Below, piece by piece: positions 11,487 through 14,146 of a stretch of 64,000 nucleotides of DNA. Source of the stretch: Pedosphaera parvula Ellin514 (GTDB lineage Bacteria > Verrucomicrobiota > Verrucomicrobiia > Limisphaerales > Pedosphaeraceae); the NCBI RefSeq assembly GCF_000172555.1, contig NZ_ABOX02000011.1, positions 1-64,000 of the forward strand. The letters run 5' to 3'. The notes under the pieces were generated by a model, which worked only from the letters and a program-made list of their open reading frames with translations, was not told the origin of the DNA and ran no database searches. Both the position numbers and the translations under genes were made by a program. The stretch's first letter is position 1, and every line of letters starts with the position of its first letter.

Positions 11487-12530
11487 ATGAGCCAAAATCT
11501 TTTTCCAAAATTGCACAACGCCATGTGGCCCGGTCTCGTCGGCAAAGGCAGCCCCGGTGCTGAACCTTCCATCGATCTCGATACCATGCTTGACCTCACC
11601 GCCAAGGCCGAAGTCAACGGTGTCAAATTCGATGGCGTCGATCTCTTCCTCTTCGATCCCCACGTCAGCATTGATTCCAGCGATGACGATCTGAAAAAAC
11701 TCGCCGACAAAATTCGCAAAAAGGGTTTCGTGGTCGGTTCTGTCGTCGCACCAGTTTGGCCTCCCACCGGCGGTGGTTCAGCCATGGGCGGTGATGAAGA
11801 CCGTAAGAAATTTGTCGACCAGGTCAAGAAGGCTTGCCGCATCGCCAAAAAATTGCGTGATCTCGATATTCGTCCCTACGGCGTCGTTCGCATCGACTCC
11901 GCAGCCGGCGTCACCGATTGGGAAAAAGATCCCAAAGGCAACACGAAGAAGATCGCAAAAACTTTCAAGGAAGCTGCCAAGGTCGCCAAGGATCATGGCG
12001 AACGTCTCGCGGCCGAAGGCGAAATCTGCTGGGGCGGCATGCACAGTTGGAAATACATGGTTCAACTCCTCGAAGAAGTCGGTCAACCCAAGGTCGTCGG
12101 CTTCCAGGCAGACATGGCCCACACCCTTCTCTACACTCTCGGCTATAACGCCCCTGAACACCGTATTGTCCCCACTAAGTATCACTGGGAACCGGATCAA
12201 TTCCATACGGCGATGAAGAAAATGACGAAGGCACTGCGCCCATGGACCATGGACTTCCACGTCGCTCAAAATGACGCCACGGTAAAAGGTTCTGGCTCAC
12301 ACGACAAAACCGGCCGCCACTGCCTTGCCACTGACCCCAACGGCAAATTAAACATTGCCCGCGATGCCGGCTACTGGATGCGCGACGATGCCGGCAAGGT
12401 CACCAAAAAGTTCAAGCACATCTGTTGGGACGGTTGCATGTTTCCCAATGAAGTCATGCATAAACAGGAAACCTGGAACAATATCCTGGCCTCCATGATT
12501 CAAGTCCGCGAAAACCACGGCTGGGCCTGA
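11487..12530 (+). CDS. sugar phosphate isomerase/epimerase-like TIM-barrel protein
   Basis: About 347 residues. The ATG at 11487 follows an AAAGGA ribosome site by about six bases. The chain shows the pattern of the AP-endonuclease-2/xylose-isomerase-like barrel: an early [11 protein letters not shown] strand, [29 protein letters not shown] (Glu and His as metal ligands), [11 protein letters not shown] (Asp-x-x-His), and MDFHVAQND (His/Asp near the end). These are the expected divalent-metal ligands of sugar isomerases or epimerases. Its neighbour at 13004 is a Gfo/Idh/MocA oxidoreductase, and such pairs are typical of catabolic pathways for inositol-like or unusual sugars. The actual substrate cannot be read from sequence. 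It is soluble with no signal peptide. Confidence 0.85.
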
Positions 12531-12543
12531 AGCCTCTGCCTTG

Positions 12544-12571
12544 CCACAAAAAGCACAAAAAAGCACAAAAA
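12544..12571. repeat. left inverted repeat flanking the GxxExxY gene
   Basis: The stretch has the pattern ccac, A-run, gcac, A-run, gcac, A-run. Its reverse complement aligns with 12965-12990 on the far side of the GxxExxY gene with only a few mismatches, both ending in gtgg at the outer edge. The right end of this arm sits three bases before the gene's ATG. Confidence 0.6.
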
Positions 12572-12574
12572 GTT

Positions 12575-12964
12575 ATGAGTGACATCATGCGTCTGTGCGA
12601 TGTGATAAGAGAAACGGGATATGCGATTCATCGTTATCACCGTAACGGCCACGTGGAAAAGATTTACGAGAACGCCTTGGTAAACCGCCTGCGGAAGCAA
12701 GGCCTCGAGGTGCAACAGCAACATCCATTACAAGTATTTGATGAAGATGGAGCCTTGTTGGGCAACTTTTCCGCAGATCTCCTTGTGGAAAACCAGTTAA
12801 TCGTAGAATTGAAAGCAGTCCGCGCCGTCGTAGATGAACATGTGGCACAGTTATTGGGATACCTTCGTGCATCAAGAATCGAACACGGCTTGCTAATCAA
12901 CTTCGGAGCAGGAAAATTCCAGATCAAAAAATACATCATCAACGACGTAATAGAAAAATTTTAA
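12575..12964 (+). CDS. GxxExxY family protein
   Basis: About 129 residues. The defining motif is seen as GHVEKIYENAL (G-x-x-E-x-x-Y, residues ~25-33). It is followed by the family's typical run: LRKQGLEVQQQ, then the strand ADLLVENQLIVELKAV with a Glu-x-Lys pair, QLLGYLRAS, and LLINFGAGKFQIKKYI. The D...E.K spacing (ADLLVENQLIVELK) resembles the PD-(D/E)XK nuclease core, and a nuclease-like fold has been suggested for this family; no activity can be claimed here. Such genes occur sporadically and often in several copies per genome. This one sits between two sugar-metabolism genes to which it has no obvious relation, and is framed tightly by inverted repeats (12544-12571, 12965-12990), which suggests insertion as a cassette. 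Confidence 0.88.
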   Translation: MSDIMRLCDVIRETGYAIHRYHRNGHVEKIYENALVNRLRKQGLEVQQQHPLQVFDEDGALLGNFSADLLVENQLIVELKAVRAVVDEHVAQLLGYLRASRIEHGLLINFGAGKFQIKKYIINDVIEKF

Positions 12965-12990
12965 TTTGTGCCTTTTGTGCCTTTTCGTGG
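12965..12990. repeat. right inverted repeat flanking the GxxExxY gene
   Basis: It reads tttgtgcc-ttttgtgcc-ttttcgtgg, i.e. the reverse complement of 12544-12571 apart from a few changes. It begins directly after the GxxExxY stop codon and ends 13 bases before the next ATG. Confidence 0.6.
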
Positions 12991-13003
12991 CCATTTTTAA
13001 TTT

Positions 13004-14146
13004 ATGAAACCATTAAATGTAGGTCTTATCGGTTACGGCTTTATGGGCCGTACGCACTCCAATGCCTTCCGCAAGGTCAATAATTTCTTCGACCTGGAAT
13101 ATCAACCCGTCCTTAAGGCCATCTGCGCGCGTGACGGCGAAAAAGCCACTGCTTTCGCGAAGAAGTGGGGTTACGAATCTGTCGAAACCGATTGGCGCAA
13201 ACTTATCGCCCGCGATGACATCGATCTCATCGATATTGCCACACCGAATAACACCCACGCCGAAATCGCCATGGCTGCTGCCAAAGCTGGCAAAATGATC
13301 CTCTGCGAGAAGCCGCTTTCCATGAATGGCCCCGAAGGCGAAAAGATGGTGGCTGCGATCAAAAAAGCCGGCGTGCCAAACATGGTTTGGTATAACTATC
13401 GCCGCGTCCCTGCCGTAACCCTCGCCAAACAACTCATCGATGAAGGAAAGCTCGGTCGCATCTTCCATTACCGCGCCAAGTTCCTCCAGGACTGGACCAT
13501 CTCCAAAGACCTCCCTCAAGGCGGCGCCGGGCTCTGGCGTCTGGATGTCAAAGCCGCTGGCAGCGGTGTGACGGGCGATCTTCTGGCACACTGCATCGAC
13601 ACCGCCATCTGGCTCAACGGCAGCATCAACACTGTGACCGCGATGACGGAAACCTTCATCAAGGAACGCAAGCATACGCTTACCGGCAAGGTTCAAAAAG
13701 TTGGCATCGATGACGCCTGCGCATTCCTGGCCCGCTTCAACAACGGCTCGCTCGCCACGTTCGAATCGACTCGTTACGCCCGCGGTCACAAGGCGCTCTA
13801 CACCTTCGAAATTAACGGTGAAAACGCCTCTATCGCCTGGGATCTCCACGATCTGCATCGCCTGCAATATTTTGATCACCGCGACGAAGGCCGTACTCGC
13901 GGCTGGCGTTCCATCCATGTGACCGATCCCGACCAGCCCTACATGAAGAACTGGTGGGTGCCCGGCCTCCAAATTGGTTACGAGCATACCTTCATTCATC
14001 AGGTGGCGGATTTCCTGAAGAGCCTGGAATCCACCAAGAGCGCCCATCCCGATTTCCGCGACGCCCTGGAAACCCAATACGTTTGCGACGCCGTTCTGAA
14101 GTCCGCCAAAACCGGCAAATGGGAAAAAGTGCCTAAACTGAAGTAA
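13004..14146 (+). CDS. Gfo/Idh/MocA family oxidoreductase
   Basis: About 380 residues, cytoplasmic. The N-terminal Rossmann fold begins [16 protein letters not shown] (dinucleotide-binding GxGxxG). It is followed by the family's CEKPLSMN motif (~residues 103-110), whose Lys is the usual catalytic/cofactor-contact residue. The C-terminal alpha/beta domain contains [14 protein letters not shown], with the Asp/His pair expected for substrate and proton transfer. Family members oxidise sugars or inositols with NAD(P). Together with the TIM-barrel isomerase 470 bases upstream it probably acts on an uncommon sugar. The original pair may have been adjacent before the GxxExxY cassette came between them (inference). 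It is followed by a strong hairpin. Confidence 0.93.

Follow-up and report, generated by a model that had tools for sequence, protein, structure and literature searches.

Among described genetic systems, the closest parallel to the locus presented here is the RAYT-REP (REPIN) system. In this system, a gene is flanked by palindromic repeats of its own, inverted doublets lacking the gene are dispersed over the genome, and enzyme and repeats co-evolve (PMC3116915, PMC8266576). A second parallel is offered by the IVS of Coxiella, in which tandem heptamers (GACAGAT) precede an S23p gene (PMC4990558). The GxxExxY proteins form a sporadic family. Proposals for its function are almost absent, and the literature searched mentions it in passing only.

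One gene of this family lies within the window, by which we mean the whole stretch of 64,000 nucleotides analyzed from Pedosphaera parvula Ellin514. The features of the locus are as follows:

11487..12530, plus strand: xylose-isomerase-like TIM barrel gene (AP_endonuc_2-type), the upstream host-site gene (profile match; neighbor conserved in relatives regardless of whether the cassette is present)
12543..12571, plus strand: left arm, three tandem words CCACAAAAAG / GCACAAAAAA / GCACAAAAA (sequence; arm also present at the orthologs in genomes G002 and G033)
12575..12964, plus strand: GxxExxY gene, 129 aa, predicted nuclease of the PD-(D/E)XK fold (profile matches, motif residues, model)
12965..12991, minus strand: right arm, the words of the left arm inverted (minus-strand reading GCCACGAAAAGGCACAAAAGGCACAAA; sequence)
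13004..14146, plus strand: Gfo/Idh/MocA oxidoreductase gene, the downstream host-site gene (profile match)

A first-pass annotation had described a GxxExxY gene between two probable sugar-pathway genes, framed by inverted repeats, and with three bases between the left repeat and the start codon. All of this was confirmed: the TIM barrel gene lies upstream and the oxidoreductase gene downstream, the left arm (GCCACAAAAAGCACAAAAAAGCACAAAAA, 12543-12571) is followed by GTT and then by the ATG at 12575, and the stop codon at 12962-12964 is followed immediately by the right arm (TTTGTGCCTTTTGTGCCTTTTCGTGGC, 12965-12991). The annotation had also seen the repeats as units of gtgc and T-runs. Their positions were correct, but the arms go beyond T-runs: in each, a ~10-bp word (GCACAAAA) plus spacer is present three times in tandem. 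Taken on their own, the window arms are an imperfect inverted pair (27 nt, 78% complementary) of low complexity, as a chance or compositional artifact of the A-rich flanks would be. The controls leave this explanation practically no probability. An arm score of 16 was reached at 0 of the 3175 same-geometry positions in the window (maximum 13) and by 3 of 5000 dinucleotide-block shuffles of both flanks. In addition, the orthologous copies at the same locus in G002 and G033 carry the same arms (TTAGCCACGAAAAAGCACAAAAGGCACAAAA and GGCCACGATAAGGCACAAGGAACACAAAA, respectively, each with its mirror), and a family-wide control, described below, gave the same outcome.

Relatives in which the two sugar genes are adjacent, which the first-pass annotation had suggested looking for, were readily found. 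In nine relatives belonging to the order, the genes are separated by 24-104 bp and no arms are present; in two members of the same family, the distance is 32-47 bp. At the same locus, the cassette of G002 has a frameshifted gene between intact arms, G033, a member of another family, carries an ortholog with 70% identity in the same place, and in G060 this spot is occupied by a gene-less hairpin whose words belong to another class. As a separate observation, in G001, which belongs to the genus of the window genome, a short lysine/alanine-rich reading stretch with repeats replaces the cassette between the sugar genes (L264), and the upstream sugar gene is also more diverged (75%).

Filled and empty sites were also found upstream of a pilT-like gene in Geothrix. 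In about twenty species, this junction measures 10-15 bp; in at least 6, it contains a cassette and spans 539-589 bp. In a tree of the flanks, the empty species are nested among the filled ones. The insert is positioned after the stop codon and before the ribosome-binding site of the next gene. Comparison of filled and empty sites with 87-96% identical flanks gave no clear target duplication, the 10-15-bp spacer itself being variable. In one genome of this group (G123, L320), the outer ACAGGATT arms have been kept and the gene has been lost, with a CACAAAG hairpin inside; by its sequence, this is a nested element, in which a hairpin of another class sits within a gene-lost remnant. The dS of the insert (0.8-2) exceeds that of the flanks (0.2-0.5), a gap that we rejected as proof of repeated arrival because the flanking genes are conserved and codon-biased, and the insert gene is short. 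The divergence of the insert rises with that of the flanks, so that the insertion may be old and mostly lost, rather than spreading. These divergences are compatible with transfer of the insert between alleles, as by homing, and equally with its absence.

Some sites have been used by more than one cassette. At the nuoF-nuoG junction, L005, L048, and L183 represent three different cassettes, each with its own word, and the valS junction holds two subfamilies (L004/L050 and L013) with 33% identity; we take these to be nuo and valS genes from reading their translated ends. Between L005 and L048, the flanking proteins are 92-94% identical, while the GxxExxY proteins are only 49% identical. L048 also has a complete hairpin on both sides of its gene.

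Gene and arms behave as one unit that comes and goes at such sites, and no movement was observed in the genomes compared. The earlier proposal of a mobile unit without a transposase of its own is supported as regards the unit-like behavior, the empty sites, and the missing transposase, and is not supported as regards a shared arm sequence. Carriage by plasmids or phages was dropped as an explanation, as only 6 relatives were found on plasmids and none in phages. Free-standing homing endonucleases are similar in that a small nuclease gene occupies tolerated sites and is scattered between close relatives. What sets the GxxExxY unit apart is that it possesses repeat arms and also occurs in gene-less forms, without a demonstrated recognition site spanning the insertion point. 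Homing endonucleases are also known as enzymes of the LAGLIDADG, HNH, and GIY-YIG types, unlike the PD-(D/E)XK enzymes of the PDDEXK_3 family.

The window protein belongs to the GxxExxY family by profile cut-offs as well as by its residues. It matches TIGR04256 among the NCBIfam profiles (E 1.3e-34, 119 bits against a cut-off of 35) and PF13366 (PDDEXK_3) in Pfam (E 6.9e-31, 107.5 bits against a cut-off of 22), and both the Gx2Ex2Y motif and the D...ExK core (D68, E78-x-K80) are complete. D68, E78, and K80 are invariant across 36 sequences from many phyla. As Pfam and NCBIfam returned only PDDEXK_3 and GxxExxY, the protein is neither a HuH Y1 transposase (PF01797) nor an S23p-type four-helix-bundle protein by these profiles. 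The predicted model (pLDDT 92.5) has a restriction-endonuclease-like core, with Cas4/RecB-type, restriction, and Hjc (Holliday-junction) nucleases as top fold matches, such as 4ic1 (SSO0001; Z 9.2, 105 residues, rmsd 4.7) and 3ijm (Z 8.4, 102 residues, rmsd 3.4). Since many other nuclease-fold structures followed close behind the best matches, only the fold class was taken from this comparison; a sequence search of solved structures gave no match of weight. In Geothrix, the dN/dS of the gene is 0.05-0.14. To judge from these sequences, the GxxExxY gene is under purifying selection as a protein, with its predicted nuclease site intact.

The window genome contains 4 copies of the family, and 30 of 40 related genomes have copies over the cut-off. 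To score arms across the family, the flanks of 55 full-length copies from the related genomes were compared with their own mirror images. Of these copies, 37 (67%) exceeded the 99th percentile of position-shifted controls, compared to 3% of mismatched flank pairs. A wider set of 80 loci, with titles from about 15 phyla, was chosen by protein similarity alone out of a collection of 84,980 species. It was restricted to subclade A3, because a broader alignment proved too diverse for scanning loci, and is hence biased to the ACAGGATT word class. Arms were present in 65 of these 80 copies (81%), nearly all of them ACAGGATT or a close variant. In the related genomes, the words varied, and included ACAGGATTA, CACGAATGG, CACAGATGG, CACGGATGA, CGCGAAGG, CGCGGAGG, CGCTAATC, and CACAAAGA, among others. 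Of 104 GxxExxY copies, 87 had an arm period of 9 or 10, and a period of 7 did not occur. Comparison of flanks, as suggested in the first-pass annotation, recovers arms in most copies of both sets, though about a third of copies lack clear arms; one of these, L002 (G000:C6:177315-177656), is among the four copies of the window genome and has no detectable arms. What the copies have in common is the design, three tandem words facing their inverted counterparts. The sequence itself, which the annotation had expected to be shared, differs and follows the protein subfamily.

This last point was borne out by comparing arms and proteins between genomes. The mean arm score was 6.5, equal to background, at 35-40% protein identity, and rose to 12.4 at 50-60% and to 18 above 70%. 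Arm similarity and protein identity were correlated in Mantel tests among the relatives (r 0.43), in the wide set (r 0.39), and overall (r 0.61), values reached by 0 of 2000 permutations, while the similarity of flipped arms remained at background in the same test. Within one genome, copies of different subfamilies have different words. The word thus tracks the protein subfamily and not the host, a tie that may partly reflect common descent of the linked unit, for which the test makes no correction. As neutral intergenic DNA would be unrecognizable at 50-60% protein identity, the arms have been kept with the gene. This co-evolution suggests that each nuclease subfamily recognizes its own word.

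Arms of this type also occur without a gene. A pattern for one word class detected arms in 26 of the 40 relatives, with up to 71 per genome, whereas the reversed-pattern control detected 0. Many of these gene-less arms are inverted pairs 24-99 bp apart. In the window genome itself, the word class of the window copy was found in single half-arms only, and in no solo hairpin. Among 24 gene-less hairpins, the variable word positions mismatched between the two arms in 6% of cases, against 33% expected from pairing arms of different elements, while the spacers mismatched in 62%, against 50% expected. Within an element, the words are therefore alike while the intervening bases vary freely, the mark of a repeated binding site. 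Full base-pairing of the arms is disfavored as the conserved feature of the solo hairpins, given their non-complementary spacers. The freedom of the spacers is not general, as in some gene cassettes the spacers agree between the arms, too.

G012 carries a multicopy hairpin family (L244-L263) of about 120-190 bp with CACAGAT arms. Its conservation extends past the arms (outer GCAGTTGAAA / TTTCAACTGCCGGATTTAAG), and its words are those of the GxxExxY cassette of G012 itself. Such short, gene-less palindromic elements, one family of them multicopy, resemble MITEs; the difference is that the matching gene-bearing form encodes a nuclease, and no parent IS with ends matching the hairpins was found. 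Across genomes, the number of solo arms was only weakly tied to the presence of a gene of the same class: of two word classes, one gave p = 0.015 and the other was not significant. G001 holds over 30 arms but lacks a GxxExxY gene altogether. Genes and arms thus turn over separately. The first-pass annotation had regarded repeats that lie in an unrelated setting, without the gene, as evidence against a cassette. They do occur, yet a REPIN- or MITE-like pairing of two forms predicts them.

Tandem words that are spaced by roughly one helical turn and flank the gene on either side resemble an array of protein-binding sites. The arms could accordingly be operators, to which the protein binds to regulate its own expression, in which case mobility would be ordinary recombination, and the solo hairpins would be relics or operators themselves. 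Inverted arrays on both sides would be unusual for an operator, however, as would tens of gene-less hairpins including a multicopy family, and the nuclease fold with its conserved catalytic set also argues against it. We regard this explanation as improbable.

On balance, we lean toward interpreting the feature as a copy of a two-part unit, consisting of a small PD-(D/E)XK nuclease gene and inverted arms of about three 9-10-bp words, which are read by the nuclease subfamily. Gene cassettes and gene-less hairpins would then be two forms of a single REPIN/RAYT-like repeat system. In the likely mechanism, each word of the array on a hairpin or cruciform arm would be occupied by one copy of the nuclease, and the arm would be cut or nicked there. 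Repair or copying could then insert the whole unit, or the arms alone, at intergenic positions that tolerate an insertion, for instance the gap that separates a stop codon from the ribosome-binding site downstream of it. This is the most economical reading of the data, in which nuclease activity and movement of the unit by the nuclease are putative steps.

The logic of this arrangement, a gene with cognate palindromic repeats and gene-less copies, is known from RAYT-REP, and the analogy extends to the GxxExxY gene being flanked by cognate-type repeats, with gene-less inverted doublets elsewhere. Enzyme and repeats are unrelated, however: a PD-(D/E)XK nuclease takes the place of the HuH tyrosine transposase, and tandem-word arms that of a single GC-rich, GTAG/CGTC-tagged stem. 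A text search with the arm sequences gave no match in the literature searched, and this enzyme, its repeat design, and the subfamily-specific words were absent from the open-access literature searched (no preprints), so that a description elsewhere is possible. An arm design found across about 15 phyla, with a word specific to each subfamily, suggests a type of gene-plus-repeat mobile unit that has yet to be described, as far as can be read from sequence. The link between enzyme subfamily and word gives the GxxExxY family a likely substrate, and would account for a widespread class of palindromic intergenic repeats. With it, a PD-(D/E)XK nuclease would join the enzymes that may sustain families of repeats. 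Should the word code prove readable from the protein sequence, GxxExxY would also be a new example of a small nuclease whose specificity shifts easily.

The first-pass annotation had instead assigned the binding of the repeats to an enzyme encoded elsewhere. A version of this idea is that a RAYT or IS200/IS605-type transposase mobilizes the hairpins, with the GxxExxY gene merely traveling along or being neutral. Y1 transposase genes are present in 9 of 9 genomes searched, and the solo arms of G001, without a gene, would fit this scenario. However, the RAYT (PF01797) genes of these genomes (L334-L363, e.g., L353, L354, and L342) have classical GC-rich REP hairpins on both sides and no CAC words. 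As their repeats share no words with the arms, RAYTs are disfavored as the mobilizer, and the encoded PD-(D/E)XK protein is the better candidate for reading the repeats; an enzyme from elsewhere is not needed. The tracking of the GxxExxY subfamily by the word class across phyla, and the purifying selection on the gene, likewise argue against a mere passenger, a role to which we assign little probability.

A stronger competitor, though still an unlikely one, is an RNA-level element similar to an IVS (intervening sequence), which in 23S rRNA holds an S23p gene and is excised by RNase III. Here, the arms would form an mRNA stem around the gene that renders the insertion harmless and may promote its spread via RNA, with the protein binding the repeats as RNA. 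Like an IVS, the unit is sporadic, measures ~430 nt, and has a small gene between inverted ends. Cassettes lie inside tight operon junctions and are co-oriented with their neighbors (downstream neighbor, 96/120, p 2e-11; upstream neighbor, 89/131), either because co-transcribed insertions survive or because the mechanism is strand-biased. This co-orientation may only mirror which insertions survive or become transcribed, however. In addition, the non-complementary spacers of the solo hairpins argue against a full duplex as the feature that is kept, and the best matches to the PD-(D/E)XK fold are mostly DNA enzymes. Further differences are that the window unit is intergenic between two protein genes rather than inserted in a helix of 23S rRNA, that its protein is unrelated and its word period is 9-10, and that RNA excision, a property of the IVS, would be hypothetical here.

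The RNA-level explanation stays in play through this co-orientation and through a parallel in the four-helix-bundle (S23p-type) genes of the same genomes (TIGR02436; L134-L163). These genes have the same arm design, inverted arms of tandem words, with a period of 7, in 21 of 24 copies. The Coxiella heptamers introduced above are an independent match to this period, and support the RNA-level explanation as well. Together with the RAYT and GxxExxY results, this means that three unrelated proteins each have their own repeat class. We tentatively consider, at somewhat less than even chances, that GxxExxY nucleases and four-helix-bundle proteins, which are unrelated, each drive their own tandem-word inverted repeats (periods 9-10 and 7, respectively). 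If so, protein-read word arrays may be a general principle, parallel to and independent of RAYT-REP, behind much of the unexplained short palindromic repeat content between genes in many phyla. An example of a period-7 arm is TTTCGAATTTCGAA, and one of the four-helix-bundle copies (L139, G000:C38:31601-31921) is present in the window genome.
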